Positions 3,001 to 64,000 of a DNA stretch of 64,000 nt are shown here, in pieces (within the stretch, counting starts at the first letter, position 1; each line of letters starts with the position of its first letter). The stretch is taken from assembly GCA_001599295.1 (NCBI GenBank), contig BCGN01000004.1, positions 1,839,617 through 1,903,616 of the forward strand. The letters run 5' to 3'. The position numbers and the translations under genes were made by a program. Origin of the DNA: Sporopachydermia quercuum. Taxonomy: Eukaryota > Ascomycota > Sporopachydermiomycetes > Sporopachydermiales > Sporopachydermiaceae. The notes below the pieces were generated by a model. The model was not told the origin of the DNA and did no database searches. It saw nothing but the letters and a program-made list of their open reading frames with translations.

Positions 3001-3220
3001 AAATCATATAATACTCATGGTGTTATTTATCAAAATTTATCCTGATTGGTAACTGATTTCATTATACTTTAATACTATAATACCAGACAAGATTATAAAG
3101 CATTCTTTTATTCTTCTAGTTAAGAATTTGACAACTCATTGTTTAGGAGGTTTGTGTTGACATAGGCCAGCGTACCAACCACCGAATACATTTTCATATA
3201 TCTACATATAAATATCAACG
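1..3220. other. Intergenic region upstream of UBC4
   Basis: No convincing intact gene is visible. Short open frames exist on both strands, but none shows a recognisable domain. A decayed reading frame (1601-2068) is listed separately. A GATA tetranucleotide run of about four units lies at 1183-1198. The 150 bases before 3221 should hold the UBC4 promoter and leader. I see no tRNA or other RNA gene. Confidence 0.6.
1601..2068 (+). pseudogene. Decayed reading frame, family unknown
   Basis: One plus-strand frame runs for about 155 codons interrupted by only two stops before the final one. Its translation is protein-like: mixed hydrophobic and charged residues, with a stretch such as FLTYIFRRVVVHAFVKAIL followed by acidic helices. 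That persistence is unusual for intergenic DNA this AT-rich, so a relic of a host gene is the simplest reading. I do not recognise the family. There is no good start codon and no obvious splice site that removes both stops. A multi-exon gene with sequencing errors is possible but less likely. Confidence 0.35.
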
Positions 3221-3879
<659 letters not shown>

Positions 3880-4205
3880 TCAGTGTATTTGCAATATCAG
3901 ATCCAGGGTAATATAGAATTGTTTGAGTCTAAGAAGCGATAGAATAATTAAGAGTTTCTTGACTTTACGATTTCAATGACTGTCTTTTTCTGTACATTTG
4001 ATAAATCAGTCACCATAGTTCATTCCACGGACTTATTTTACTGAAGTACTCAATGGACAAGTTTAGTTTATAAATTTTCATGTTTCTATAGAGATTCAAC
4101 AATATCAGATTACTCTTTTATGATAAATAGGTATTATCACCCATCTATAGAGATATTTTAAACCTATCCAGTTTAACTATTTTAACTGTTTTAGCTATTA
4201 TTCCT
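3880..4205. other. Convergent intergenic spacer
   Basis: A 326-base AT-rich spacer between two converging genes. It should carry both 3' ends and polyadenylation signals. No gene or repeat is seen. Confidence 0.7.
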
Positions 4206-5313
4206 TTATAATTTTGTCTTGAATGGAATGCCTTCATATTGATCCAAGGCAAGTTGAACAGCTTTCATTGACATTCCAAGCCCGCTTTGATAACCATTTC
4301 CACTGGCACCATAGTTATGTACAATCAATTTACCAACTTCAACTTCCTCTCTTTCAATTCTAGTACCACCTTGTCTAGAGGGTCTCAACCCTGCTACTTC
4401 CCTTAAAATCTCAACAGGTCTCTCCAATATTTTTGGCAAAAGAGTAGTAGTCCGTTCAATAATATCTTTCGTCTCATAGCCAAAAGTATCTCCAGTCCAG
4501 TTATCCTTTTGTAGAAAGCCACCTAAAATAAGCTGATCATCTGAATGAGGACGAGGGATAATGTATGTAGCATATGACTTTCCCCATCTATGCATATTTT
4601 CTTTGATATGAGGAGCCTTAATAACAACAACCTGTCCCCTTGTTGCATATACCTTTGAATCCTTGACACCTTCCAAAAATCTGGCTCCGATACCTGTACA
4701 GTTGAACACATATTTGGTGTCACTTTTCCAGAAAGCTTGAGATATATGTGTGAGCTTCTTTCTCTCAAACTTCACACCTTCCCTTGCCAAATAGTCTGCC
4801 ATATTGACTAAAAACTTTGGACAGTTGAAATCCCAAGTGGTGTACTTTACCCCAAATTTTGCTCCTACTGGTAAGCTTTCAGGAGGTAGGATTTGAAAGC
4901 CATTCAAATAGGTACTTAAATCTTTGATCTTTCTCTTATTGGGTAAATAGTCCCAGTACTCAGTTGTGGGATATTGCTGTAAGCCACATTCTGGTCCTCC
5001 TAATTTCTTTTGAATGACATGCAAATTAGTGTAAGTAAATTTATCGTATGCCAACGTAGCTTCATCGTTTGCTGAGATAGCAGAAAAATTACCACCAGCC
5101 CATGGCGAAGTGTAGTAAGTAGATTGATCACCAGGAAGATATTCAGCAATGATTGTTACATCTTTGATTCCTTTCTCAATCAGAATATACCCGGTATATA
5201 ATCCAATGATACCTGATCTAATAAAACATCAATTTTGGTTAATATATACCACAAGAATGAAATGTTTGTTCATCAAAGCGCTATACGTACCCAACTATAA
5301 CGTATTCACTCAT
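4206..5313 (-). CDS. DAO1: D-amino-acid oxidase (FAD flavoprotein)
   Basis: Oxidatively deaminates D-amino acids to 2-oxo acids, ammonia and peroxide, normally in peroxisomes. Exon 1 (5313-5291) encodes MSEYVIVG; exon 2 is 5217-4206. The intron has a GTACGT donor, a TATTAAC branch-like site and a TAG acceptor. Splicing restores the FAD dinucleotide fold VIVGSGIIGLYTG at residues 4-16, missing from the large exon alone. The protein is 344 residues, normal for DAO. Family signatures in order: SPWAGGNFSAISAND, FNCTGIGARFL, RGQVVVIKAP, YIIPRP, GLRPSRQGGTRIE and HNYGASGNGYQ. It ends KTKL, a weak PTS1-like tail. D-aspartate oxidase is an alternative, since the substrate cannot be read from sequence. 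It shares its upstream region with YAP1. Confidence 0.92.
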
Positions 5314-7081
5314 GATCGATTTGTTCTCAATTGCCCTAGACCAAATAAAAATGTATATTATCAATTGTTTGAATTAAGATTAAAAGAATAACAAAATGGT
5401 CATTTAAAATATTCATGGAGACTTTTCATCACAAATTTGTAAGCCAATTGATAATACAATGCAGCAAGTGATATTATGAAGTACAACTAACTTATGATGC
5501 TAAAGAGCAAACCACCAATTTTCACTTTCACTTTTACTTTCGCTTTTATATATTATTTTTCATCGCCTTACTGCCCATCTACGAGGTTGTTCGTTTTAAT
5601 TTATAACAATGCCAATGTTTATTACTTTTTTCATGTGAATGAATTGAAAAATAAATAATGTAAACTGATAGTAATTAATGCGGCTTTAGGGCTCCGGTTG
5701 ACTCATTCTTGAAATTTAATTTGTCCTTCAGTTTCCTTATCAGTGATGAGGCACTTAATGGAGATAAGCCGTGTACTTGTGCCAGAAGGATGTATAGAAT
5801 ATTTTACAGTGGATGCCGCTTGTTATTGTTCAAAATGGAAATAATTGAGATAGTACAACTAGCTAAATAATAAATGTAGGACATAGAGAAGCTTTCCAGA
5901 ACTGCTTTGAGTAATTGTTTGGTCAAGATGCTTGCTGGTTCATGTCCGGTCCTTATGAGCAATATCATACAATATCATACATACAAGAGGAGAGCATCAC
6001 TGAACTGAACCTTGGAGGTACTCAGAACTGAAATTTCATACAGGAACACAGATAAAACCTTGGAGTTGAACTGAACAAGACTAAGCTCTTAATGAAATTC
6101 GAAATAGTACTGAATAAGTGTCGTTTTTCAATCATCTCAGTATAATGATGGATCTAGTAGTATCTTGTTGTGGGTGGTGAAAGCCAAAAACCCTTTCTTC
6201 AGACACTATCAACCACAATTTTAACCAGCTTGAAATCTCCCACCCAACCAAACACGCTCGCGTTTCCTTCAAACATTAAGTATCACTACAATTCTAACAT
6301 CGTCAACTTCGCTAACAATTCTCTACCTTTTTCTTTCCTACCATTCTCTCATTATTCCAGAATCATCGAGCAAGTCTCATCCATGTCTGGACTAAATCTA
6401 CTTACAAATATTAGATGACATAATCCTAAAATTTCATAAAACATGACCACAATAATAAATAAGAAATTTTTGCCACTGAGTGGAAGAAGTACAAATACAT
6501 TAAGTACATGTGAAAACATTTCACTCATTACTAATCAAGTGCTCAATCAAGTAATTGATGGCATATCTTCACCTGTAGTTCTTGCATGTCGAATAACGTG
6601 TGAATCCATCTCCACTTTATCTAAGGGGTATTATGACTATTCAATAAGAACTGTAGTTTCTGCTTTCTTTTTCTTAGAACAATGTTAATTGAAGATAAAG
6701 TCATTGAGAAACTGGAAAATTCTGGATTTACAGCGTGCAGAGGATTTATGTGTAATTCTGAACAATAGATGAGATAATAATAGCTTATGACAAGTAGAGT
6801 ATCACAAATAAAATTTTCAGGAAGAAGAAAGTAGGATTTGGCACGGTACTTATAAAAGTAAGAAAGAAGTGAATACATCGTTATATTGTCACAGTTTGCT
6901 TATCGTTATACAGTTTTTTGGTAGAGAATAGGCAGTTCACAAATTTTCAAGTAGAAGCGTAAAATAATCAGAATTATTGGTCGAAACTCAACAGGGTGTT
7001 TTTAGTACAGACGGAGTATAATACACACTACACATTATACATAATACATTACACATTACACATTACACATCACACATTACA
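5314..7081. promoter_or_regulatory. Divergent DAO1-YAP1 intergenic region
   Basis: About 1.8 kb between two divergent genes, so both promoters must lie here. Short open frames at 6170-6418 and 6443-6688 lack any domain, signal or homology I recognise. Just before the YAP1 start, 7023-7080 is a run of imperfect ACACATT units. No RNA gene is seen. Confidence 0.55.
7023..7080 (+). repeat. Imperfect ACACATT short tandem repeat in the YAP1 leader
   Basis: About seven degenerate 8-nt units of the type ACACATTA follow one another and end at the YAP1 ATG. G is absent, so the leader would be unstructured. This is probably just a simple-sequence 5' leader. Confidence 0.7.
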
Positions 7082-8737
7082 ATGGCTGAGGTATCGAAAA
7101 GACCAATAAACTCAGTGAACGGTTCTGAAATTAGTAATCCTAAACGACACGAGAGCGGTACAAGTTTATCTAGTGCCAGCTCAACTTCGTCATTATCCGA
7201 AGCAGCACTAGCAGCAGCAGCAGCTAAGAAAGCGGGAAGGAAACCTAGTAATGATGTTCCTGAAAGTAAGAGGAAAGCGCAAAATAGAGCAGCACAACGT
7301 GCTTTTAGAGAACGTAAAGAAAAGCGTCTACAGGAGCTTGAAACAAGAGTCAATGAGCTGGAAAATGAACAGCTAGCTAAAAACTCAGAGAATGAATTTT
7401 TGCGATTGCAGATTGACAGATTGATGAAAGAGTTAACCACTTATAGAAATGCATTTATAGCAGACTCACAACAAGACGGTNCTAATATCATAAGCAAACT
7501 GGATGCAACCCAGCAGAGCGAAAGCTTAGGAACTAAATGGACTCCTACTAGTTCGTTTTCCTTTCCTGCTATACCCACAAATTTCAATCCGTCCCCCGGT
7601 TCTGGCAATGTCTCGGGTTCAGCATCATCATCACCAACTTCAGTCAGTCAACCATCTTTATCAGAGAATGGCGGGGAATCATCCTGTACGTCTGTTGGGT
7701 CGTCTCCTTTGAATCCTGTCCTGAGCAGTTCATTGATTAATAAATCATCTTCCGGAAATGGACAGCTCAACTCTTTATTCAACACCCCAAGTGTTGGAAG
7801 CTCATCGGAAAGTTCAGCTGTGGGATCGGTGACAGGAGTGCCTACGAAGACCGAAGAGGAACCATTTGAAGAGACTGTTAGTGATTTTTGCTTGGAGCTT
7901 TCGGAGGCTTGCGGCACCAAAACGCAACCAGTACCTAAGAATTTATCGAAAGCAGCAAGTAACAAAGCTTTTTCTGTATTCTCGAATGATAGCATAAATA
8001 CACCTAGCTCAATTTACTCTAATTCTATTGATACACCCAGCGGGATAGGCTCAAGCTTTCCTAATGCTACTAGTTTGCTGTTTGATTTGAATAATAATTC
8101 AAGAGACAAGCAGACGAAAAGTCGTACAGTTGGACAAGGAGCTGAAAGTTTTTCAACAACAGACAACTCTACTGGTAGTGTTAACCAGCAAACGGAAGAT
8201 CTCATTGCGAATGATTTCTTATCAAGTTTATCAGCAGTAAGTGAGCCAAATCCTTATTCGTCATTGTTTGACATGAATCAGTTTGATGCTTCATTAGTAT
8301 TTGATGACCCTTTCAACAACATATACCAGGATGATGAAATAGAAAAAGCTAGCAACAGTAATCCTGTTGTAGCAGATAGCAGCCTATCAGCTCCTGAGGA
8401 CGCTTCTGAATTGCTATATAAAGGACTGACAACCGAAGAATCAGTATATGATCCTTTGGGAATGTTCAAATCTAGTGAACCAGTGCCCGTTGAAGTTCCT
8501 GCTCTCGAAGAGACAAATCCAGATAACGATGAAGTTGTTCCAAACAATGAAAAATATCTTATGTCATGTTCCGCTGTGTGGGATAGAATCACGGCTCATC
8601 CGAGATATGGTGACATCGATATCGAAGGTTTATGCTACGAATTGAAAACGAAAGCTAAATGTTCTGAAAGAGGAGTTGTGATAGAAAAAGACGAGATTGA
8701 TACTATACTTGGGCAATTTCCTGAGAAGCAAAACTAA
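7082..8737 (+). CDS. YAP1: AP-1-like bZIP oxidative-stress factor, Yap1 type
   Basis: Transcription factor that activates thioredoxin, glutathione and efflux genes when peroxide or thiol-reactive drugs oxidise its cysteines and block Crm1 export. 551 residues, intronless. The bZIP (about 53-120) has the fungal basic motif NRAAQRAFRERKEKR followed by a leucine zipper in which CTG encodes a zipper leucine. The n-CRD is VSDFCLELSEACG (Cys270, Cys277; a seven-residue step as in Yap1 Cys303/Cys310). The c-CRD has Cys496, Cys518 and Cys527, exactly the 22- and 9-residue spacing of Yap1 Cys598/620/629. The middle is Ser/Asn-rich activation sequence. One codon contains an N. The conserved cysteines argue for a redox-regulated orthologue (Yap1/Cap1) and against another Yap paralogue. 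Confidence 0.95.
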   Translation: MAEVSKRPINSVNGSEISNPKRHESGTSLSSASSTSSLSEAALAAAAAKKAGRKPSNDVPESKRKAQNRAAQRAFRERKEKRLQELETRVNELENEQLAKNSENEFLRLQIDRLMKELTTYRNAFIADSQQDGXNIISKLDATQQSESLGTKWTPTSSFSFPAIPTNFNPSPGSGNVSGSASSSPTSVSQPSLSENGGESSCTSVGSSPLNPVLSSSLINKSSSGNGQLNSLFNTPSVGSSSESSAVGSVTGVPTKTEEEPFEETVSDFCLELSEACGTKTQPVPKNLSKAASNKAFSVFSNDSINTPSSIYSNSIDTPSGIGSSFPNATSLLFDLNNNSRDKQTKSRTVGQGAESFSTTDNSTGSVNQQTEDLIANDFLSSLSAVSEPNPYSSLFDMNQFDASLVFDDPFNNIYQDDEIEKASNSNPVVADSSLSAPEDASELLYKGLTTEESVYDPLGMFKSSEPVPVEVPALEETNPDNDEVVPNNEKYLMSCSAVWDRITAHPRYGDIDIEGLCYELKTKAKCSERGVVIEKDEIDTILGQFPEKQN

Positions 8738-48214: not shown

Positions 48215-50128
48215 ATGGTCACAGCTATAAAGAAAACATATCGTAAGTACATTGAATTGTTGAGACTACTAGAAAGCTTGTGTATTCAAGAAATTGTTAT
48301 CCAAAACTAACAACACAATATTTAATCTTTAGACCGAGCATGCGTCAATTGTCATATTCGCAAAAGAGCATGCGATATGGCCAAACAAACACCATGTAGA
48401 CGATGTGAAGAAGCTAAATTGTCGTGTCATCCTCATATTCCCAAAAGAAGGCGCATTAAAAGCATTCAAAGTGCCAGTGAAAAGAAAACAGAGCTTCTGA
48501 ATAGCGGTCCGCAATCTTCCTTACCACAGATAGCTCCTGGCGATTACGCCCCAAGGCAGTATCAAACGGCCGAAGTCTACGATTTGACCAAAGACAATTG
48601 TATTCTAGTTGATTTTTTATCGCAAGATTTTTCCTCCGTGTCGATCAATAACTATCAAGTCACATTTGTTGATAAATATACAAGCATCACCAGACAACTC
48701 GCTAAAGAGTTTGGCCAAGGGTTCGAGAATATGGATAACGTGTACCATTTCCGAGATGCGCCGTTTCTGCAACGAGGATTTGGATCCATCCCTCGAACTA
48801 TCAGTGATAAGGAAAGAGCTTTATTAGAATTGCAAGGAGCGTTCACATTACCTACTGAGTCAATAGCAAAAACGTTTATCGATGCCTTTTTCGATAGAAT
48901 TCATCCATTTGTTCCGATTATCAGTAAAGACACATTTACAGCGTACAATGAAAACACCTCCGGTTCTCATCCTGTATCGATTTTGCTTCTCCAGTCTATC
49001 ATTTTGGGAGGTTCCACTGTACTCGACCATCCTGAGTTAGAACTTCCCCAAGATGAAGTTAGCGCAAAGTTATATGAGCGGGCAAAATCTTTGGTAGATG
49101 TGAAATACGAACAAGATAGACTCACCCTTGTTCAGAGTCATTTAATATTTTCGGTCTTCAACGCTGATTCCTGTGACGATACTGTGGCCAGTATGTGGCT
49201 TTCTCTTGGTACTGCCATAAGGCTAGCACAAGGTTTGGGAATGCATAGGAAATTTGGTAACGCAAACGCTGATATAGAAATGCGGAAGCAATGGCGAAGA
49301 ACATGGTGGACATTGTTCCAGCATGATGTATTGTGTTCTTTCGAATGGGGAAGACCTAGAGCTATCAATCTAGACGATACCGATGTAGAAGAAATAAGTG
49401 AACTTGATTTCATTATTGATAAGAGTGATGGGGAGAAGGAGTATATATTAAGTGAAGAAAACATAATATTTTTTCTATTGAATCAGAAGCTGTGTCATAT
49501 CATCAATGAATGGATGAAGCTGATTTCTCCCAAATATAATGGTAAAATTTTGGAGACAATTGAGAAGAAAATCATGCTCGAGCATTTGAAACAAAAGATG
49601 CGTCGATGGTTTGAAAGCTTGCCTTATCAGTATCAAATGTCAGCGCTAAATGATAAAATATGTGAAAAATGGCCCTTGTGGGCTTACAGCCTTTTATGTG
49701 TATATAATGCCTTGATTATCCGAGTGTATTCTCATGAGGATTCTAAAGAGCTTGAAGCAAAGGAGAATGTGTCAATAGCTTCGAGAAGAATCTTGGAGTT
49801 GTTTCAACAGTTAGAAAGGAGAAATTTACAGGATTCGATATGGGTTTTTGGTATCCATGAGTTTGATTTGGCTTTGACATTTTTTGCTAAGATGGCAAAT
49901 GATACCAATCGGGTGGTGGCGTATGCTGGTCTTCAAGCGTTAGATGTTGGTGTTCCGTTACTGGGAAAGATGTGTGAACGATCTTCAGTTGCCCGACAAG
50001 GTTATGTATTTTATCAAACTCTACTCAACTCTAAAATTGAATTGTTCAATACAATTCAGTTTATAGATGTCGCATTTGCCGATGATTGCAATGAGAATCC
50101 AGATTTTGGAGAGCTCTTCGTCGTTTGA
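48215..50128 (+). CDS. Zn2Cys6 transcription factor with fungal_trans domain
   Basis: Exons 48215-48242 and 48333-50128 encode 607 residues. The 28-nt first exon (MVTAIKKTY) joins through a GTAAGT donor, an AACTAAC branch and a TTTAG acceptor to complete the zinc cluster: Cys13, 16, 23, 31, 34 and 41 (CX2CX6CX7CX2CX6C). Starting at the internal Met of exon 2 would lose half of the cluster, so the spliced start is preferred. A basic KRRRIK follows. The fungal-specific regulatory domain (about 190-400) shows FIDAFFDRIHPFVPIISKDTF, WLSLGTAIRLAQGLGMHRK and RRTWWTLFQHDVLCSFEWGRP. The layout resembles Ctf1/FarB-type and other catabolic regulators. The target is unknown; the PhyH-type gene next door is the obvious candidate. 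Confidence 0.9.
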
Positions 50129-52247
50129 ACATTTTTGCAATCATTTTTTGATTTGACTGCATGCATCTAATTAAAACGATTAAACTGAAGTTTTAAGAAG
50201 CACTGATTTATAGATTCACTTATTAGATCACATGTTTAGATCTGTAGAGCTTGAGTAATCAAGTTATTTATTTTTAAATGATATAATGAACTAAATCAGT
50301 AGGTACGAATATGTGATATTAATGGGTATTCTCAAGGCATATACAACAAGTATAGAAGGAACATAGACATTAGGGAATAAAATTTAATGGAAATTAGAAG
50401 GAATATGTATAAAGAATAGAAATTTTTTTTGGCAAACCCCGTTTGCTTCTATTCCGGTCCCAAAGCTTTGAGTTCTGTTCATCAATTTTACTATGTAGAG
50501 TATGTTGATCGACGTCTTATCCTTTTTCACAAGATGTATGTGTAAGGGAACATCAAAATGTTTAAGAGGCAGCAACAGGTTCTTCTAGTGATTATGTAAT
50601 CGCGTATTAACGTTATTTGCTCCAACACCATATTGACTTCTTTATCAATCTACGTTCTTATCCTTTCGTTTTGCTGGGAAAACAGTTACTTTAAACCCAA
50701 TCTCAGTTTTGTTAACATGTGGGATCAGTACAATTTAGCAAGCACAATATGAATTTTATATACTATTATTTTTAAATTTCTTATTTTTATTGATCGGGGA
50801 ATGCTCTAATATCTTATCAGTATTCGTTCTAATAATAGATAATTAGATATTATAAATTTGTTGCGATATTATTTCAGAATAATAAATACAGATTACGTAA
50901 ATAATAATTATTGTTTCCTCTTCACTTTCACCGGAATCTGAAAGCATATGTAACTGATATATTCATCCACTACAAAAGTGTTTACTAATACAAAGATGTC
51001 GGAAAAATGAATGAAAGTAAGTTTAAAACACGGACTCTGTATTAAGGGTGCTGTATGATTGATCATTTACTGTTATTTCTATATATATCCTCAACATCTA
51101 TGTAATTATTACTATAGATAGGTAAATTATTAAATACAAGAACTAGCAAGTACATTCAGAGCTAACTTAAATAACTTAGATTTAATCTTTCTCATTCGTT
51201 AAATCCTAATCCACTTTCAATAATAGTTTTTGACGTACTTCATCTATACATGTTACCAGGAACTACACAGATAGGAGCGTGTTATTACCAGAAATTGATG
51301 TGACGTATAATAAATTAATATATATTAATGAATTTGACAGCTCATGTAATTATTTATGAAGCTGTAAAGATGAAAAAGTAATGGTGATAATAATATAGTA
51401 GTAAATCTTCAAACAAGCTACGCGTCTTATCAATATCCAATTTGCTTACCAACCAATAGACCTATATAAACAGATGACTACAAATTGGGACGTATCAATG
51501 AATAAACTATTTGACTGTAAAACTCTCCTTGAAGGATCAAATGACACAGCGTCTGATGTACAGAGACTTGTTCAAATAAGAAGTATAGTTGTTACAAAGC
51601 AATAATGAAACAAAGACTCTTATGAACAGTAGTCTATTACTTTGCAAATGTCACTTAACTTGTTAACAAAATATTGTATGCATGTTGTGTAGGAATATAT
51701 TTAAATAAAAAGCAAGTAAAGTGCAAAAAGTAATAATACAACAACTAACTATATCACATTGTTAGTAACAATAACATGTGAATACTATTTAATTTTTTCT
51801 GTATCTTATTTAATATGTACTTACTTAAACACAGTCATAAGAATGGCTGCGTCTCAGAATTCTTGATGTTCCTTTGTACTGCCTTATAAAAAAGGGTGTA
51901 AAGTGGATCAACAAAATCTATATAGTAGAGAGGTTGGCGAGAAAAATATAAATATCCATAACTCACAACTGATAACCATCAATTAAAATAAAATAAAATA
52001 CAATACATCTTTAGCACGCTACACTTCAGGAGATTGTAATATATATATAGACATTTTTCACTTGGTTAAAACTATATACATACCACAGAAATGACTGAAT
52101 AAATAAATGATCCATCGATTGTATCTATGTAAAAATTTGGGAGGCTCCCACTATGTAAAATACAAAATCATCAGAATGAAGGATGAGGTGATACATGAAG
52201 TTGGTCAGGTCAATCGAGAATAAATTCAACAAATAGCTCATTAAGGC

Positions 52248-52329
52248 AAATTATTGACTAATATCTATAAAAAGAAACGAATAACTTATAAAGGTAAATT
52301 TATTGATTAATATATATAAAAAGAAACGA
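52248..52329 (+). repeat. Two-copy tandem repeat, period about 48 bp
   Basis: Both copies share the core TTATTGA-TAATAT-TATAAAAAGAAACGA. Two or three differences are visible. Simple local duplication in AT-rich DNA. Confidence 0.7.
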
Positions 52330-52871
52330 GAAACGTAAAAAATAAACCAATAACTAATAAGGGAAAAATATTTACTTTTGACTTATAAGAAGAAAACGTA
52401 AATAGAGTAACCAGGAAGATGAGGATTGCTATAGTGATGATGTAAATATTGATATAGTACTTGGATAAAAGAGAAAAATAATAAAGCGATAAAAAAGAAC
52501 AGGAGGCGGAAGGAGTAGCCTGAAGGAGGCGGTACGTAACATTCATGTGACAAAAAGATACTGGAAAGGGACAGATACTCTACCGCCCAACTACCAACCT
52601 ACAGACTTGGTGAAGGCACAAATTTAAACCGTCTATGTGCTTTGAGTCTCATTAATTACCAAGAATATAGTAGCAACCAAATCGTAGTGCTTTTGCAACA
52701 GAGTTTGTATTCAAAGGAGCTTATTTTTGAAAAAATAAATGGCTGAAAACAACTGAAAATAGAGGGAATACTTAATCATTTAGTTAATTTGTTTCTTATT
52801 TGTAAACTTGAATTAATCTTTTATACCACCACGTTTCCGACAATTTTCCAACAATTGTCATTCCACAATGT

Positions 52872-53045
52872 CATGTGACTCATCACATGCCATTTTATTA
52901 AATGATATCATAAACCAAGATTACTTTTCCATAAGCTCACATGACGACTTACATCACATGATATACCATATGAGTTGTCACATGAGTACATACTTATATT
53001 TTGAATATCACCTATCACATGTCATCTCACAATTGATATCACATG
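52872..53045. promoter_or_regulatory. Cluster of CACATG/CATGTG motifs
   Basis: Seven copies lie in about 174 bp: 52872, 52884, 52938, 52955, 52979, 53016 and 53040. Several are extended to the near-palindrome TCACATGA. CACATG is an E-box core of the kind bound by basic helix-loop-helix factors such as Ino2/Ino4. The cluster is about 520 bp upstream of the GT25-type gene. Binding is inferred, not shown. Confidence 0.45.
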
Positions 53046-53563
53046 ATACATCATATGACTATAGCTTTTTCAGCAAGGTAAAATTGATTACGTGAGAATT
53101 ATCAAAAATTTATTAATTTATTACGTATTCTATATTTTTAAGTGTAGAATAGTTTGCATTTTTATGCATGAACATATACGTAATCTACATATAAGTACAA
53201 AAGATTTAACTTTAAGATTAGAACTGTTGATTTCTTTGAGACCCCCGAAATTAAACTTCCTTGTCAAAGTAGATCTCAGCGCCAATCAAAGTATAATTAT
53301 GTGATTAGTTTTGTTGAATGGCAGTAGTACAGAACATTGAATTACCATTCTTGAACCTGTTCCTTAAGCCTTGTCTGTCTTATCATCATAAGGTTCAAAC
53401 CGTAGAGCTTTATTTCGTTCCATTTTTTCCTTCTTCTTTCTCCTCTGTGCACAACTACATTAATTGATCACAATAAGAAGTTTAGATTACTCTTCTAATG
53501 AAGTTAGAGTAAGTAGTACGTTCCGGTGCTGGAATATTTCTTCTTGGCAGTTATGTAATTTTT

Positions 53564-54832
53564 TTGGCCAAGATTTTGAAATCCCACAAATTTAGTAGCT
53601 CGAAGATGTTCACTTTAAATTTGTTAGCTTCACCTTGGAAGCAGAAAATCAAATCTTCTAGAGCCTATACTTGTTTTTTAGCTTTACTGTTGCTTGCAAT
53701 TCCTATTATAACAATACTACAAAGTGATCTGAGGGACGTATTCAATTTGGTTGATACAAGCAGTTTCATAAACAGCAATCGTTCGAACGAAGACAGTAGA
53801 AATACAGTAGTTGTTGAAATAGAACTAGCGAAAACCTCAGAGATGTATTTTAACTCTATCAACAATGCGACGCTAGGAGTAGAGAAAATCATTTACATTC
53901 ACCTACCTCAAAATTTGAACAAGCTTGATATCATGACTATGCAATCGTCAGCTTCAGGTATTGAATTTGAGGTTAGGGAGGGTGTTATACCTGATAGTTT
54001 ATCAGATAAAGGCTTACCCCCTAATCTAAACACTTGGAAAGGAGGAAATGACATGAAGCTAGAGGAAAAGGCCTGTTGGAGGGCACATGCTAATATTTGG
54101 AGAGAAATGGTGGAAAATGGATGGAGTAGTGTTCTTGTACTAGAGTCTGATGCTACTTGGGAAATAGGTTTGAAGCAAGACATGCAAAGAGTTGCCAGAG
54201 CTCTGAACGATGTTACTATAGCATACCCTGGATACAAAAGAGACGTCGAACCACATGATCAAGATCCTTGGAATACCAGGAAGTGGGATATGTTTTATCC
54301 AGGATCTTGCGGAGATAATGAAAAGGAATTGAGAAAAGATCAATTTTTGAAATATGAAAGTCCTGAATCTCCGGATAATTATGAATATTTTGGCGACAAA
54401 CTTGTTAATGAAAGAGTCGTAAGGAGAAATGGTGCTCCACTATGCACTACAGGTTATATTATCTCTCTAGAGGGAGCAAAAAAGCTACTACTGCGGACCA
54501 ATGTAGATATGAGCTATCCTGTTGATCTAATTATTGGTGATTTGTCTCGTGATAACAGATTGATTTCTTACAGTGTATATCCGCCTTTGATTCACTCATG
54601 GGGCTATATTCAAGGTATCGGTGCAGAAGATAAAGAGTCTGATATCCTTGACAGAAAGCCAGCAGATCAACACGTCGAAGCATGGAAACAGGCTTTTGAT
54701 AGGTTTGACGCTTGGAGAATTAGAACAGAATATAGAGTAAAACACCCCATTCTAAGCTCCTTGAAGCAAGACTATTTTAATGGAGAAATAATTGAAAACG
54801 AGGTTGCAAAAATAGACTACGTACCGGAATGA
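53564..54832 (+). CDS. GT25-like type II membrane glycosyltransferase
   Basis: 422 residues, intronless. A short cytoplasmic tail is followed by one signal anchor (about 34-52, AYTCFLALLLLAIPIITIL), the topology of Golgi transferases. The lumenal part matches the glycosyltransferase family 25 layout: IIYIHLPQNLNKLDIM (about 109-124), KACWRAHANIWREMVENGWSS (169-189), acidic motif VLVLESDATW (190-199), GAPLCTTGYIISLEGAKKLL, then a C-terminal HSWGYIQG. The likely role is transfer of a sugar, perhaps galactose, to cell-surface glycans; donor and acceptor cannot be read. A second, truncated copy follows at 55685-56093, so the gene belongs to a duplicating family, as expected near a telomere. Confidence 0.85.
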   Translation: MAKILKSHKFSSSKMFTLNLLASPWKQKIKSSRAYTCFLALLLLAIPIITILQSDLRDVFNLVDTSSFINSNRSNEDSRNTVVVEIELAKTSEMYFNSINNATLGVEKIIYIHLPQNLNKLDIMTMQSSASGIEFEVREGVIPDSLSDKGLPPNLNTWKGGNDMKLEEKACWRAHANIWREMVENGWSSVLVLESDATWEIGLKQDMQRVARALNDVTIAYPGYKRDVEPHDQDPWNTRKWDMFYPGSCGDNEKELRKDQFLKYESPESPDNYEYFGDKLVNERVVRRNGAPLCTTGYIISLEGAKKLLLRTNVDMSYPVDLIIGDLSRDNRLISYSVYPPLIHSWGYIQGIGAEDKESDILDRKPADQHVEAWKQAFDRFDAWRIRTEYRVKHPILSSLKQDYFNGEIIENEVAKIDYVPE

Positions 54833-55684
54833 TGGTAGAGCTAGTCCAAAAACCATGGCATTATATGCGTTTCGTATATGATGGCGTCTGTCTTCTTGTT
54901 TCAGAGCAGTAATATCGATATTGCACTCCATATTGTTGAAATGACACATAGTTGCATTGGTATAAAGGGCACAGGTTGTTGGAAGTCTAAACTATGAGGA
55001 AAAGTGAAAAGCATTAATGCTAGATGAGAACAAACATAGTCCAAGGAAGCTCACTAATTAACATTTCAAGGAAGATACAGGACTAATCGACACGATATCC
55101 ATAATGTCTCAAATGGCATCAGCTTTCTTGTCTTGGACATCAATTTCAGTCCAGGCAGTGAGTCAATTCGATGGGTATGTAATTGAGATTCTTGACTCAA
55201 TTCAACTCAATAGTACTCTGCCAAGCACAATTTTGGAAAAGAGCAAACTTTATTTGCCCTACTTCGTTTATTTTCAAGTTTTGTTTTCACCTTTATGTAA
55301 TGAGACACTATTTCTTTACTNGTTCAATTGTAAATGAAAGTGATGTGCTATCTTTAAAACATTCATTTATTAATTTCTGTTAGAATCCAATTTCAAATTC
55401 CAAATAAACTATTTGACATGCACTTTACAAACGGCATAGTTTATAATTGTTTTTACTCAGATAGTGTTTTCTAGATTCTTGCATAACTATTGTATGATCT
55501 TAGTTGAATTCAACACAACATGCCAGATAGTTAAAGACCGAGTTACTAGCTAGAAATTGGATCTACAAGCTGATACGGTATAATAATGATTTTCATCCAA
55601 TAAGCTCAAAGCTCAATTATTCAATAGCAAATATACATCATAACTGAAAGGGTATCCAAAATGAACCGAAATACCTAGATTTAT
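54833..55684. other. Spacer between the two GT25-like copies
   Basis: About 850 bases of AT-rich DNA. The frame at 55104-55337 has no recognisable domain. No repeat or RNA gene is seen. Confidence 0.55.
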
Positions 55685-56093
55685 TTGTGCTGCTGCCAAT
55701 AAAAGTAGCCCTGATGGTAAGAACCAACCTCCAACAGGTTTTCATACATACAGATGAAATAGTAATCGATAGGGAAAATAAATGCATAGTATACAAGAGT
55801 CTTGAAGTAATCGCCGAAAAGCTTAAGGTTAAGGAATCTTTGTTTTTCCCAATTAGTCACTGTGCTCTTAGAGCATTCAAAATCATTTACATCATGCCTC
55901 ACAATCATAACAAATTAGACATTATGCCAACGCAGACTTGGGTCTCAGGGATTGAGTTTGAGGTAAGGAAAGATGTAAATCAGAGAATTTTGCCGGAAAG
56001 AGAACTTTCACCTATTATCAATCCTATGACAGATTTTCCTGAGATGAGAGGAAGTGGGAAAGGGTGCTGGAGAACGCACGGAGAGAGACAATA
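55685..56093 (+). pseudogene. Truncated GT25-like gene copy
   Basis: Aligns with about residues 43-178 of the intact gene at 53564: FKIIYIMPHNHNKLDIMPTQ against EKIIYIHLPQNLNKLDIMTMQ, SGIEFEVRKDV against SGIEFEVREGV, and GKGCWRTHGERQ against EKACWRAHANIW. No cytoplasmic tail is found upstream, and the downstream two-thirds, including the acidic ESDATW motif, are absent. Similarity stops abruptly where the SNT2-like sequence begins, so this end is a rearrangement junction and not gradual decay. The fragment has diverged well beyond a recent duplicate. It would not encode a working transferase. Confidence 0.8.
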
Positions 56094-58734
56094 ATAAGCA
56101 ACTGGCATGTGATTTCCTCAGAAGAAATCGGAAGAGATCCCGAAGGAATCCCGCTTCCATGGTATCAAGAAGTGCCTCGCCGATACGTTGAAAGAGGCGG
56201 CGAAGACACTGTGAGTTTGAGATGGAAACCAGCTGGAAGTTCCGAGATTATTTCCGATGTTGAGATAGCGGCATACTTAACGAAGGCCGGGATTTAAAAT
56301 GAGAAATTGCTACTCCGGCCGGTTACCCCAAATTTTACAGATGCTTGTCTCCAAACCTTACTGAACTGTAACTATAGTGTGTCAAAAGCATTGAAAATTG
56401 TTCCCACTTTCACCCGGCAAACCTTGAAAGAGCCGACTTTCTCCAATGCCGAAATCGGCCGCTTTGAAGAAGGAGTTTGTATGTATGGATCGGAACTGCA
56501 TCCGGTTTATCAGCATGTGAAAACGCAGCCAAGTGCTATGATTGTCCGGTTTTACTACTTATGGAAGAAAACACCTTCCGGACACGCAATTTGAGACAAT
56601 TTCGAAGGCCGGAAACATATGTGGAAGCCATAAGATGCTGGCAGTGGAACGGGAAGTGGCACTGCAGCCGGAAAACATATCGGCACCGAGATTGAAGACG
56701 GAAATTATGTGGACACTGTGGCCTCGTCAGAAGATGATTCGGGATACGATGTCCGAAAAGCTCGGATGCAGAAAAGAACGGTCAAATGTAAATTTTGTCG
56801 AACCACAAACTCAATTGTATGGAAACGAGCTCCTGGTCATGCTGTAGCTGAAGCCGGAATGGAAGAAATAACGGCACTTTGCTTCCGATGCGCTCGGCTA
56901 TGGAGATTATATGCTGTGTTTTGGGAGGAGCCACTGGAAGTACTTCGGAAGTTGAGCCAACGAGGAGGAGGAGGATGGAAACGTCGAATGGAAGACGAGT
57001 TGATTTCGGATGCGGAGAAAATAATGGAAGGTCGGAACTCTGGTGTTGAAGGTACATCCCCTATTGCTAATTATAGTTATGACGAGTGTTTCGGTAACGG
57101 CCGAATTCAACGGAAAAGGTTACGGAAAAAGCGGAAGTTATCTGCCAAGTCTAAAAATGGTACAAATGGAATTCCGGAAAAAATCACAAACACATCGAAA
57201 CCTGAAAAGATGCCGAAATCTCGGAATAAATCCACAATTTCTACTACTGTGAAACTCAATGAAGCTGAAAAACGAAAACAAAAAGGACCGCAACCAGAGA
57301 GAACCTTAAATGCAACACTAATTCCGCGAAAACGCATCAAAATGGAAAAGTTAAAACATCCCAATAGGGAAAACACTCAACCTAATTTTGGATCCGGTAT
57401 TATTTCCGATATTACATCTCCAAAATCGGAAATCGTAGCCAACTCCGAGCTCAAACAGCAAAAAAAAGCGGCAAAAGCGATCTCTAGATGCTTCCGCGGT
57501 GGCTCCAGCCACGACTATTGCTGCTGCTGCGGCTGCTGCTGCCGTTGCCGCTTCCGGTGGTCGTCCGAAACATTCAAACGTCTCGGCTTCTCGGATCTTG
57601 CAATTAGAACAAGCTTCCGATATCTTTTCTTCCTGTCAGGACGTCGGGATACCTTTCAAAACTCCGTTCAGTACTAATGCCCGTGTTTGTTGCGTTTGCC
57701 ATAGTCTGGCGCCTTCGCACAATATGGCTATATGTTGTTCATGTGGACTTAATGTCCATAAGACATGGTACGGCATACCAGAGTTGGGAACAAATCTCGG
57801 GTCGGCTAGATGGCTCTGTGACGTTTGTAGTAATGACTCAAATCCAGGAGTCTCTACTATTTATGATTGTGTGCTATGTCCAGTAAGAGAAACGGATCAT
57901 GATGCTGCAATCCCAGGACTCGATTCTGCTGAGCCGGACGCTTTGAAACGGACTGTCAATAACTGGTCACACGTGATGTGTTCTGTATTTCTAGGTAAGT
58001 GTAAATTCGGAGACGTTGTTCATCGGCAGCCAGTGGAAGGTATATCCGAGATTCCCATCTCAGCTTTAGAAACCACCTGCACTATCTGTCGGACAAATAA
58101 TGGAGCTTGTACGCGATGTCGTCTTTGTGACATACCCATTCATGTTGGATGTGCATTTCGGAAACGATTCTTCTTTGGGTTTGAGATGAAGTCTCCGGAA
58201 TTAGCAAATTCAGTTGAGAATAGTGGAAATAATGAAATAATAAAGTTTGGGCCAAATGCAAAAGGAATACCTAGACCAGTGATTGTGTGTGCTCGGCACG
58301 ACGTTTTAAAACTTCCATTCTACTCCATAGCAGATAAAGTCATCGATTCGGAAGAAAACGTATTGGATTTGTTCTGCTCGAAGTATAAGATGGCAAAGCC
58401 GGAGAACACAGGATTTATGTAAGGATACGAAGAATATCAACGGCTAAGAAGGAATATTTTGGAATCGGAGAAACTGAATTCCAGAAATCACGGCGGAAAC
58501 TGCGAAAATCGCGGATTGAAAAAAGAGAAAATGGCTGGGGGAAAAATTGATCTGTTAGGGATAAAACCGGAGATTATAGCGGAAAAGGTGTTAAGACACA
58601 TGGAAGCAGGAAATGAGGAAACGGCAACGGGAAATATACCGGAGCCCATTTTGGAAAAAGCTTCGGAAGAAAATTTACTGGAAATTGCAGTTGAAATGGA
58701 ACCACAAATGGAGAAATCAATTCAGATTGGCTAA
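56094..58734 (+). pseudogene. SNT2: 5'-truncated, broken SNT2 gene
   Basis: Snt2 is a chromatin regulator of the Snt2-Ecm5-Rpd3 complex with BAH, PHD, ELM2/SANT and GATA-like modules. Present in order: RDPEGIPLPWYQEVPRRYVERG (56110-56300); a SANT segment RFEEGVCMYGSELHPVYQHV...IVRFYYLWKKTPSG (56450-56590); a GATA-like finger CKFC...CFRC (56788-56905); a PHD finger CCVCHSLAPSHN...CDVC (57688-57830); and an extended PHD CVLCPVRETDHD...HVGCAFRKRFFFGFEM (57870-58190). The BAH and first PHD are missing at the junction with the GT25 relic. In-frame stops lie at 56295, 56592 (where relatives have Trp), 56631 and 58420. The frame shifts within an A8 run at 57460-57467; seven A would keep it open. Otherwise the frame is well preserved, so decay is recent. 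A sequencing error in the A run is possible, but four stops argue for a pseudogene. Confidence 0.85.
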
Positions 58735-59041
58735 CCAGAACGGCAATGAACCTGGGAAACGGAATAACATGATGGAAGAAATACTCTGAAAACTTCGATT
58801 ATCCCTCAAATTCAAGAAGTGCTAGCATCTACACATTTTAAACTTTCTTGTTCTGCATATAGATATACTAAATAAATAGTTAAAACTTCCTACGTAAAGT
58901 GGCGACTTTATACTTCACCCCCATTTGATACATCTTGCACAATCGTACCTGTGGACCGAAATTAGTACACTACGATGTATTAGCACTGCGTCTTCTGTAA
59001 ATACCTTTAATATCTTATCAAAACATAAAAGCACTGTTCCT
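58735..59041. other. Convergent spacer between SNT2 relic and LEA1
   Basis: 307 bases holding both 3' ends, including ATATAGATATACTAAATAAA, a plausible polyadenylation region. No gene is seen. Confidence 0.65.
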
Positions 59042-60000
59042 TCAGTGGCCCCGCAGTAACCCCTCGATCCGAGAAATCTCTTCCAATGACGTTGCCGCAT
59101 CTAACTCTTTCAACAATTGTTCCTTCTCCTTTTCGGAGAGATTCCGTGCCGAGACTTCGGAACCTGGTCCCGCTCCCGAGACTGTGGCATATTTACCAGC
59201 GTCAAACCGACTATACTTCACTCCTAACAGTTCTGCGGCAGCCGGGGTAGGTTCCGTTGTCGTTCCAAACAGTTCAAAAGCTTGCTTCCGTTCGGAATCA
59301 GAAACCCGATCAAAATCTAAAAACCTCAAACATGGTATAAGCCGCACGACCCATAATCGGTAATTTTCTTTATATGTTACAGGATTGTTTACCAAAGATA
59401 GAAAAGCAAGCGAACCGGATGTACGCATTTTCGGTAAAGCTTCTGATATTTCAGAAAAATCGATTGTCGGCTCATCGGTGTCCGGCTGAGTTTCGGTATT
59501 AATACTGCTGAAGCTTCGAAGTGGATTCAAATCCCATAGATTCTCTATTCCGTTATTTGCCAAAACAAGCATGGTCAGATTAGGCAATGATTTTCTATTG
59601 AAAGACTTTTCTTCTATTGATTGTATCTGGTTTCGGGATAGTAGCAGAGTTCGTAGTTTTACCAGTTTAGGAAAGTTGCCTAAAATTCGGATGTTGTTAT
59701 CGGATAAATCAATGGCCTCATTTATATCCTAATTAGGCAAGTTAGTAGCCAGAACAGAAATAAACAGAGGTGTATAGAGATGAATGATTGATACTTAATA
59801 CTTACTCGGCTAACGCCCAGATTTTCAATTTGGGGAATTTTTCGTCCTAGTGAGAGAGTTAAGGTTAGATCAAATTTCCTAAATCCGATTGTTAACATCA
59901 TCCGAGTTCTAGAATACTCACCTCGAAGATCAATTTCCCGTTCTTCATTTGCATTCAAATACGTTGGAGCATATTGTATAACGTCGGCTGTGAGTCTCAT
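59042..60000 (-). CDS. LEA1: U2 snRNP protein A' (Lea1)
   Basis: Leucine-rich-repeat protein that binds the U2B'' homologue (Msl1) and U2 snRNA in the spliceosome. Three exons, 60000-59922, 59846-59806 and 59728-59042, encode 268 residues; phases join correctly at both introns (GTGAGT and GTAAGT donors, TAG acceptors). The N-terminus MRLTADVIQYAPTYLNANEE and REIDLRGRKIPQIENLG are diagnostic of U2A'. Repeats continue with EAIDLSDNNIRILGNFPKL, TLLLSRNQI and LTMLVLANNGI, then the LRR-cap SLVNNPVTYKENYRLWVVRLIP..RFLDFDRV. The C-terminal helix with EKEKEQLLKELDAATSLEEI resembles other fungal members. The gene is complete although it lies about 4 kb from the terminal repeat and shares atypical codon use with the SNT2 relic. 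Confidence 0.93.
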
Positions 60001-61602
60001 TGTATAACACTTCGGCTTTTCCTCAGTTGTTAAGTTTACTTTTTTGGATAAGTTTCTAAGTTTTAGAGCAAATAAATCAGAATTGGTATTAGTTTTTAGT
60101 CCGAAGATCAGTCGAATTTTGAAAGCTTCCAATAACGTCCAACGCCCAATGTCTAATGCCCAATGTGGTTCGTGCATTGTGCATTGTGTTTCTGTCATCA
60201 TACAACACAAAGCGCAAAGACTGAAAATTAAGCATCATGAAAGAGAAGGTACTTCCCAATAGAAATTAGAAGTTTCAATATTTCGGAAAACATATTCGAC
60301 TTATAGTTTCCGGAATTGTAACCTTATTATTCTCATATGTCCAGTTTGCCTTAGCATTGATTGTCATTGTTATTTTTCTTACATTTCGTACCCACAGTTA
60401 TCTGATCTGGAATACCGAAAGAAAGAAACTACCAAGCTAATTTCAGCTCATTTATTCAAAACAAAATGATTTTATTTTATTATCTGCTAAATCAGTCACA
60501 TACCTGTTGACAAATATAATTGATATACAGAAGTTCGTGTATTTGGAAAGGTGTTGAGTATCGTATCACAAGCTACTTAGGTCCCTTGCTTTTACTCAAA
60601 GTCTATCTGGTAAGAACTTTAATGTGAAACACGTGGCTTGTAATACAACTATGTAGCAATGGTAGACATTTAGGTTGGGTTCTCGTAAGAAGAAACTAAA
60701 CCAACTGCAAAGTTTATTTTACTGAGTACAAAAGGCTGTTGTATCAGTTGGTTAATATTGAATGTATGGTGATAACACTTAGATCTAATGTGAAAATAAC
60801 TAGTTGATTGTTGGTCCCTCTGTATTTTGTAGATATATCATATGACAAATATGTGATATTAACATAAGCTAACTTACAGGTGAACCTTGATTAAGTGAAA
60901 GTAATAGCGATTTTGGAATAATTAAGACGAAGATTGACGGACTAGCATTTGACTACTTAAACCATACTACATTAACTACTGAAATGATCTTGGAAAGTGT
61001 ATTTATTCGAATTGAATTAGCGAGAAGATTAATATGGGAAGTAGTCGTGCAAAGAGAAGGACAAAGAGCTCATGATCATGTGACTACGTTGAGAAATATA
61101 TATACGCTTTGATAGTATGCCAACTTGCAATTCGGCCAAGGATACCCTATGATAATATGAACAAATACTATTATTTACAGAAGTAAAGTATAGTATTTAC
61201 CATTGCTTCTGCAATTTTCTATTATTTGGTGCTACAAAACTAAAAACGTGCTATTTACATTTTAGTATTATGAATTATTAAGTTCTGATCACTTGAAACA
61301 GCGTTCGTAATTTTAGGTAGTAGATTACTTTCTTCTTCCACTGTTTCAGCTATTGGGTTCCAAACGCAATGCAGTAATGTGATGAGCTTTCACTCGAACA
61401 TGAGATTTTAGACTTTCATTCCCTTAAGATATAAAAGTTCTTTCTTTCTCAATAATTCTTATATCTAAGGTGAATAGTCAAAAGTTAGACTATTGATTAT
61501 TAGAAGTTTCTTAGATTTCTACTTTTCATTCAACCTCTATATTTTTCTCACAACTATCTACCATTTTGAGCTTTTTTATCTGTAATTTGGAAGTTAAATA
61601 GA
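60001..61602. other. Intergenic region between LEA1 and the GT32-like gene
   Basis: 1.6 kb holding two divergent promoters. The composition returns from CGG-rich to AT-rich by about 60350. Overlapping words near 60130-60185 form a small CAATGT-rich repeat (CCCAATGTCTAATGCCCAATG, then GTGCATTGTGCATTGTG). No gene is seen. Confidence 0.55.
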
Positions 61603-62739
61603 ATGATTTTGAAGTCGAAATTCGCTCGCATCATTATTGCTGCGTGTGTCACACTGATCATCATAATATTGGAAGAAACTACTTTACAGCTTATCACAGG
61701 TAAAGCAGTTGAGTATAAATCATTTTCTTACTTCGATATTACCGGAGTAAACAGTAATGACTATGCGAATAGTGAATGTATTCCCAATGATCTTCATATA
61801 GTTTATGTTCTAATCAAGGATCCTACAGAAGATCTTGTACTGCATTTCAAACACTTTCTATCTGTCTATTCTGCTTACTATTTTTGGAAACCTCGTACTA
61901 TTTACTTCCACACTAATATGCCAGATGGAAATCTCGAAAGGGCACTCAATGGTGAAATGGGGAAGTGGACTAAAAGTATATTAAAACTTCCAGGAGTGAA
62001 AGTAAACTACGTCGAGGCAGTTAAAACAACAAATACAGGGACTGAAATTTTGGGACCAGAACATGTTTCGGACTTTATCAGAGTGGCTGTGGTTAAAGAA
62101 TTGGGAGGAATTTACATAGATTTGGACGCTTTTGCTCTTAGAGATATCAAAGATTATAGGTGTAGTGGTTTCAAAACAGTGTGTGGCAGAGAACCCGAAG
62201 GGTCCATCAATAGTGGTGTCTTCTTTTCTGTCAAAAATTCTGAGGCTTTGACCCTTTGGAAAGAAGAAATGTACAGAGTATATGATGGTGAATGGACTAC
62301 TCACAGCAATCAGGCTTTCAAAAGAGTAGTTGAAAGATTGTCAAAGGAACAGAATGAAGTTTTAATAATGCAGGAGGCAACTTTTGCACCTGTCAGCTGG
62401 CAACATGATTCACAAGTAAGATTATTCGAAGTTCATGAGGATGTTATTAATAATCTAGAGCTTATTGATATTGAAAAGAAAGACCTTCCTGAATATATAG
62501 AAGAGTTTGATGGTAGTTGGAGCAACTCCAATGACGTTCCCTCGTGGGACGTTGACTTTTCACAGGTTGCAATATTACATTCTTTCGAATCAGGACCAGA
62601 GGGAATTCCGGGGTTTAAGGAAATATCCCCTTCATATATATTGGCAAGACAGAGTGTCTTTGCAAGAGCCCTATACCTTGTCGTCCGAGATATGGTTATA
62701 AATGATTGGATATCAACCACAGATATAGAGGAACCATAA
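61603..62739 (+). CDS. DXD-motif glycosyltransferase (GT32-like, sugar-binding region)
   Basis: 378 residues, intronless. N-terminal signal anchor (about 8-23, ARIIIAACVTLIIIIL) gives a type II Golgi-type protein. The core HVSDFIRVAVVKELGGIYIDLDAFALRDI carries the DXD motif (Asp173, Asp175) that binds the metal and nucleotide-sugar. It is preceded by PRTIYFHTNMPDGNLERAL and followed by NSGVFFSVKNSEALTLWKEEM and ILHSFESGPEGIPGF. This is the Gly_transf_sug/GT32 pattern shared by Och1/Sur1-like mannosyltransferases and by capsule-type galactosyltransferases; the sugar is uncertain. It is the last gene before the chromosome end, about 1.2 kb from the terminal repeat. With the GT25-type gene it suggests a subtelomeric set acting on surface glycans. 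Confidence 0.85.
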   Translation: MILKSKFARIIIAACVTLIIIILEETTLQLITGKAVEYKSFSYFDITGVNSNDYANSECIPNDLHIVYVLIKDPTEDLVLHFKHFLSVYSAYYFWKPRTIYFHTNMPDGNLERALNGEMGKWTKSILKLPGVKVNYVEAVKTTNTGTEILGPEHVSDFIRVAVVKELGGIYIDLDAFALRDIKDYRCSGFKTVCGREPEGSINSGVFFSVKNSEALTLWKEEMYRVYDGEWTTHSNQAFKRVVERLSKEQNEVLIMQEATFAPVSWQHDSQVRLFEVHEDVINNLELIDIEKKDLPEYIEEFDGSWSNSNDVPSWDVDFSQVAILHSFESGPEGIPGFKEISPSYILARQSVFARALYLVVRDMVINDWISTTDIEEP

Positions 62740-63948
62740 AAGTGAGCGGGCAGCGGAATACTCTTAAAGATAGAGTATTGTCTGGGAGATATTGTGAAAG
62801 AGAAATTCATAAAGAGTTCCAAGACAGAGATAAGGAATTATTTTGATATTCATGAGCACCAGATTGATTGGTTATCTTTCTTTTTTTCTCTTATCTATCA
62901 GCCAGGTGATCTAAATGAATAACCATTGAATGGATTAAGTAAGCAATTTTATACAAAAGCATAATTTTACCATGGTATTATGTAAACAAAAAGATTGAAA
63001 ACTATTTGGCTAAGCATCAATTAACTTTTAACCATTTCGTTGATGATGATTTCTTCTGATTGGAAAACGCCTAACAATTGTGATTACCTGATTTAGCTCA
63101 AAGCTTTGTAGGAGCAACTGACAATTACAGAATAAAGTTTATTCTCATTTTTCAGTTGCTTTTTCCTCTGCCAAGACCAGTCATACTTCGCATCTGGGAA
63201 TACAGTTTCCTGTTTTTTATGTTTATCTCTGGTATATTATACAACTAAGAAAATGTATATAGCACGTCTGCAAAATTATAAATTAATGTGCATGGGCTAT
63301 AGGTAGACTTTTCCGACGAATGTAGCTGAAGGTAAAATCGCCACCCGCGATCAGTAGTCTGAAGACAGCATTTTCAATTGATAGATAGAAGTTAGAGCAG
63401 TATTTTTTTCTCTTTACGAGAAGACTTGTCATTCAATAAGCTCTATATAATATTTCAGAATAATGCAGCTTTAATTCAATTAATTAGAGGAGATTTAAGG
63501 TTTCGCTTAGTTTCATCATACTAAACTGTAAATTAGTGTATCGGTATGGGAAACTGTACCATTTGTAATAAAGTTTCTATCTCGAACTTTATTAACAATA
63601 TTTTAAGTTCATATTTGTGCAGGATAAACAGGAAGCTACATGAAGTTACATTTAATTAGGATTATGTGATCAGTTATTAATCACAATATTAGGTTAAGGT
63701 TGAACCTACGTGCATGAAAGTTGTAGAGTCTATCTGATAATAACAAAGATATGGTTGCTATGATACAACAAGAAAGAAGATAATAACACGAAAGTAGTAT
63801 CTCTGGCCAGAGATATTTCATAGTATCCTATAGATTATGATAGCACAAAGAAGAAAATATCTAAATAGGAGGCAATAGCTGTAAAGCGAATGGAAAGCAC
63901 TCCTCTTCATTTTATATAGCTAGAAAAGACCAATATAGAAAATAAGGC
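62740..63948. other. Distal non-coding region before the terminal repeat
   Basis: 1.2 kb of AT-rich sequence without a gene. No degenerate copies of the terminal 11-mer are seen here, so the array starts abruptly at 63949. No Y'-like helicase or other known subtelomeric element is recognisable. Confidence 0.6.
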
Positions 63949-64000
63949 TTGGGAGGTAGTTGGGAGGTAGTTGGGAGGTAGTTGGGAGGTAGTTGGGAGG
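63949..64000 (+). repeat. Telomere-like 11-nt tandem repeat
   Basis: TTGGGAGGTAG is repeated four times perfectly, followed by a partial TTGGGAGG that runs to the last base of the window. The unit is G-rich on the plus strand, the 5'-to-3' orientation toward the end that telomeric DNA must have. Neighbouring genes look subtelomeric. I know of no yeast telomere with this unit: Yarrowia uses a 10-mer GGGTTAGTCA and Candida a 23-mer. The window end may not be the contig end, so an internal minisatellite remains possible. Confidence 0.7.

Follow-up and report, generated by a model that had tools for sequence, protein, structure and literature searches.

Telomerase working on a C-rich RNA template yields identical short units with all G on the outward strand. 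A known telomere unit is a usual handle for finding telomerase RNA, whose template must hold the complement of that unit. The yeast units described in the passages of the sources cited here are (i) TAAGGGTGGTG, 11 nt, in Saccharomycopsis fibuligera (PMC10100673), (ii) TTAGGGAGGTAC... in Clavispora lusitaniae, Candida intermedia, and Metschnikowia aff. pulcherrima, where the units measure 21 and 27 nt (PMC10100673), (iii) TTNNNNAGGG, 10 nt, in the Yarrowia clade with the exception of one species (PMC6746865), (iv) TAGAACGGG in Trichomonascus vanleenenianus (PMC13130702), (v) CA3G5-8, of variable length, in Saprochaete (PMC6908801, PMC6395866), and (vi) TTTGAGGG in Lipomyces oligophaga (PMC6692504). 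GTGTGG in Barnettozyma and GGGTGTCT in Cyberlindnera sylvatica are also given as telomere units in the excerpts consulted.

The window, that is, the whole 64,000-nucleotide stretch of DNA analysed here, closes with a regular array of an 11-nt G-rich unit. We consider it highly likely that this array forms the proximal beginning of a telomere templated by a telomerase RNA.

Sequence and purity of the terminal array

63949 to 64000, + strand: telomere-like array, (TTGGGAGGTAG)4.7, from TRF, composition, and Markov copies

An earlier note on this DNA had reported a perfect 11-nt G-rich array at the window end, and TRF confirms it: the array has a period of 11, 4.7 copies, 100% matches, and no indels up to base 64000. 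It makes up the final 52 bases of the window, the last of which falls mid-unit (...TTGGGAGG). In the array, perfect period 11 extends over 52 nt, compared to at most 22 nt among 30 copies of the window generated with a first-order Markov model, and no other perfect tandem array in the window reaches 30 nt (periods 2-40, two or more copies).

G occurs six times in the unit, T three times, and A twice, with the G residues in GG and GGG clusters. The outward strand of the array lacks C altogether and has a G share of 0.56, and its excess of G over C (29) is the largest of any 52-nt stretch in the window. Clustered G on one strand combined with a short tandem unit is characteristic of telomeric repeats made by telomerase. 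The G-rich strand is the + strand and runs 5′ to 3′ toward base 64000, which is the telomere-like orientation if the chromosome ends there. The 5′ junction with unique DNA is abrupt: the preceding 48 nt share 8/48 in-phase matches with the repeat, at or below chance, and contain no decayed in-phase units. The G4Hunter score of the array is 1.33, versus 0.96 or less in any non-overlapping 52-nt stretch of the window; TTAGGG scores higher (1.5) and the Yarrowia unit lower (0.9). No structure was returned for the array by a DNA folding model that is presumed not to treat quadruplexes.

Contig ends are error-prone, and a chimeric or adaptor-derived tail produced by assembly could be considered. 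Adaptors and low-quality tails, however, do not usually take the form of 4.7 error-free copies of an 11-nt unit with the base composition given above, and such an artefact is extremely unlikely.

Replication slippage could also have produced a G-rich minisatellite by chance, bearing no relation to telomeres. TRF finds six further tandem arrays in the window (e.g., at 7022-7081), and an 11-nt array resembling that of the window occurs in a bacterial contig. The six other arrays are, however, imperfect or shorter, the G-over-C bias of the terminal array is matched by no other stretch of the window, and no minisatellite is expected at the very end of a sequence. By our own estimate from the length ratio, an unrelated array of 50-100 nt would lie at the window end with a chance of the order of 0.001 per array. 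An origin as a minisatellite is thus very unlikely. The array at 7022-7081 consists of 8.6 copies of TACACAT with 86% matches and lies directly before a PAP1/YAP1-type ORF at 7082.

The bacterial array was found by scanning 25 bases of the window array against bacterial and archaeal genome contigs, of which one, L001 from a bacterial MAG, matched; the same 25 bases had 0 matches in viral contigs. At L001:341-400, an imperfect 11-nt array with 85-89% matches includes 25 bases identical to the window array. About 340 nt of other sequence separate it from the contig end, the neighbouring genes look Bacteroidota-like, and the array is plainly not a telomere. This example shows that a G-rich array with an 11-nt unit need not come from a telomere, though the bacterial array is impure and internal, and because of it sequence alone is not proof of a telomere. 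The fact that the window array represents one locus of 52 bases also counts against the telomere reading. The array in L001 is situated between two short tandem arrays, GTTAAGGT (270-301) and ACCTTAAC (441-472), which are mutually complementary and perhaps form part of a hairpin-like repeat element.

Genes next to the array and the nature of the host

The features between the end of one of the two largest ORF gaps and the array are:

53606 to 54832, + strand: glycosyltransferase family 25 (GT25) gene (PF01755), 408 aa, from the ORF list and Pfam

55714 to 56094, + strand: decayed partial copy of the GT25 gene, without a Pfam match of its own, from comparison with 53606-54832

56766 to 57677: ORF without Pfam match, from the ORF list

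57724 to 58422: PHD-like zinc protein, from the ORF list and Pfam

59042 to 60000, - strand: LRR_9 gene with three exons and two introns placed by eye, the Pfam match coming from ORF 59042-59572 only

61603 to 62739, + strand: outermost gene, a DXD-motif glycosyltransferase (PF04488), 378 aa, from the ORF list and Pfam

62740 to 63948, no strand: 1.2 kb between the last gene and the array, without a called gene or a repeat of at least 30 nt

The earlier note saw the signs of a subtelomere just inside the array, namely a fall in gene density and glycosyltransferase duplicates. The window contains 24 ORFs of at least 120 aa with an ATG start, and the coding share was calculated from 22 of these in eight 8-kb bins, with introns and small genes uncounted. 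ORFs 59722-60201 and 62433-62810, both on the minus strand, were excluded as spurious. The claimed fall does not clearly appear in these values: the last 8 kb have a coding share of 0.422, inside the range of 0.245-0.601 over the eight bins, and the two largest ORF gaps are at 50129-53605 and 1-3438. The share of 60000-63948 is 0.288, as compared to 0.245 in the bin 1-8000. As to the glycosyltransferases, the GT25 gene is followed by one decayed partial copy (44/126 positions identical, 35%), while the outermost glycosyltransferase is from another Pfam family. Comparison of 50001-64000 with itself, which leaves the overlapping array itself unlisted, yields one 45-nt AT-rich pair as the only repeat of at least 30 nt. 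With no clear fall in coding share and no such repeat other than the AT-rich pair, the subtelomere argument is weak.

These surroundings bear on whether the array might be interstitial, a telomerase product that is now internal owing to an old fusion or to break repair and is followed by unique sequence past base 64000. The window stops inside the array, leaving any continuation unseen, and the flank carries ordinary genes, including the LRR_9 gene about 4 kb inside. Against this stands the freedom of the array from mutations, since internal telomeric copies usually accumulate them, and a window edge is unlikely to hit a short internal array by chance. An interstitial position is consequently quite unlikely.

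The window has a G+C content of 35.8% and further encodes a lanosterol-demethylase-type P450, a bZIP/PAP1 protein (PF08601), a ubiquitin-conjugating enzyme, an oxoprolinase-type protein, two transporters, and two fungal transcription factors. The best matches of the P450 are lanosterol 14-alpha demethylase chains, with 740 bits for 4lxj, which we take to be the S. cerevisiae chain, versus 542 bits for the CYP51B chain 5frb, presumably that of Aspergillus. Of the five CTG codons in the P450 gene, four align with Leu and the fifth with Thr in 4lxj, and on the basis of this one gene CUG is thus very likely decoded as Leu in the host. The same holds for Yarrowia, while CUG decoding differs in the Saccharomycopsis lineage.

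By eye, the ubiquitin-conjugating gene contains one TACTAAC-type intron (GTACGT ... TTACTAAC ... TAG), and the LRR_9 gene contains two introns (GTGAGT ... ACTAG and GTAAGT ... CTACTAAC ... TAG). Introns in such numbers are in keeping with an early-branching budding yeast. A P450 closer to its budding-yeast than to its filamentous-fungus homologue and TACTAAC-type introns are both features of a Saccharomycotina host, and these sequences suggest as host a budding yeast with several introns and CUG as Leu. The LRR_9 gene is presumably U2A′/LEA1-like, and a gene of this type would not be expected in a subtelomere, some 4 kb inside the presumed end of the chromosome.

Single N occur at 47 positions of the window, 45 of them in 1-36000 and two beyond (42485, 55321), an imbalance with a binomial probability of about 1e-9 at a cut chosen post hoc. 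They are perhaps masked ambiguity codes at heterozygous sites, and their pattern would be consistent with a diploid in which heterozygosity has been lost up to the chromosome end.

Telomere reading and putative template

The claim of the earlier note that the array is a telomere holds as the best reading, with the exception of the expected subtelomere: coding share shows no clear fall, and only a decayed GT25 copy lies nearby. What favours a telomere is the perfect short unit, its G clusters, the C-free outward strand, the abrupt start, the position at the end of the window, and the yeast-like host. The array would then be the chromosome-proximal telomere start of a budding yeast, whose continuation beyond 4.7 units would have been cut off in the assembly or by the edge of the window. 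By copying an RNA template, telomerase would extend the 3′ end with TTGGGAGGTAG units; the template is predicted to contain a rotation of CTACCTCCCAA and a few further bases that allow realignment. Fixed template borders and a single register would give identical units, as in the array. The contig would be expected to end at the array, other ends to carry the same array, and the cell to possess a matching telomerase RNA and proteins bound to the repeat.

The window itself contains no second site resembling a template. Exact matches to rotations of the unit, taken on both strands, do not exceed 10 nt outside the array (52586-52595), which is about chance level (about one expected by our own estimate), and there are five positions outside it at which a nine-mer of the unit, in either orientation, begins. 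With 14 repeat bases and up to three mismatches, 13 sites were found versus 3.98 expected, four of which are in the array and nine elsewhere with 2-3 mismatches. Rfam matches in the window comprise a tRNA alone, with no telomerase RNA. Provided that TTGGGAGGTAG is the telomere repeat of this species, its value is that of a key to the telomerase RNA, whose gene could then be searched for directly, as could the telomere-binding proteins.

Comparison with described telomere units

The earlier note had called the repeat unfamiliar, which is correct for the exact unit within the literature searched and not for its kind, as the literature consulted includes short yeast units, among them one of 11 nt (PMC10100673). 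Among the literature matches listed, TTGGGAGGTAG was not found reported as a telomere, in a search of rotations on both strands that covered titles and match counts, with supplements and figures outside its range. GGGAGG is absent from the main texts of PMC8211666 and PMC10767889, and it occurs three times in PMC10100673, in the Clavispora and Metschnikowia units. According to PMC10433822, candidate motifs for >200 fungal species are provided by PMC7857110 and PMC8211666, so the unit may already be catalogued. As a telomere sequence, the unit of the array may be unreported.

The Clavispora/Metschnikowia units, as printed in the excerpt consulted, have GGGAGGTA, 8 nt, in common with that of the array. 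Shuffled 11-mers score as well in 28 and 36 of 1000 cases against these units taken singly, and in 331/1000 cases against the best of 22 motifs, which are part of the motifs printed in the literature consulted for the array. Because the latter value is not significant, descent from the Clavispora/Metschnikowia unit was rejected as an explanation and is not claimed.

Quite tentatively, TTGGGAGGTAG may represent an undescribed telomere unit from a yeast lineage with CUG as Leu and comparatively many introns. There, the ancestral TTAGGG core would have lost its A (TTGGG) and AGGTAG would have been added. It could then provide a new point for the co-evolution of the telomerase RNA template and telomere-binding proteins.

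As far as the excerpts of the cited sources go, the array resembles several described systems in form and differs from them in sequence. Saccharomycopsis fibuligera is likewise a yeast with a regular 11-nt unit that has GGG and GG clusters and no C (PMC10100673), whereas the longest stretch that the two units have in common is 3 nt. The Yarrowia clade shares with the array a short regular unit of nearly equal length, but its unit retains TT...AGGG, while that of the array has TTGGG without the A (PMC6746865). In Trichomonascus, Saprochaete, and Lipomyces oligophaga, scaffold or contig ends likewise carry short units rich in G; these are 8 to 12 nt long and have sequences other than that of the array. 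The array is a probable telomere whose kind is well known and in which variation is expected. Telomere repeats of this kind are known to vary between yeasts, and beside these systems the array, very probably the beginning of a telomere, is a useful but fairly ordinary find.
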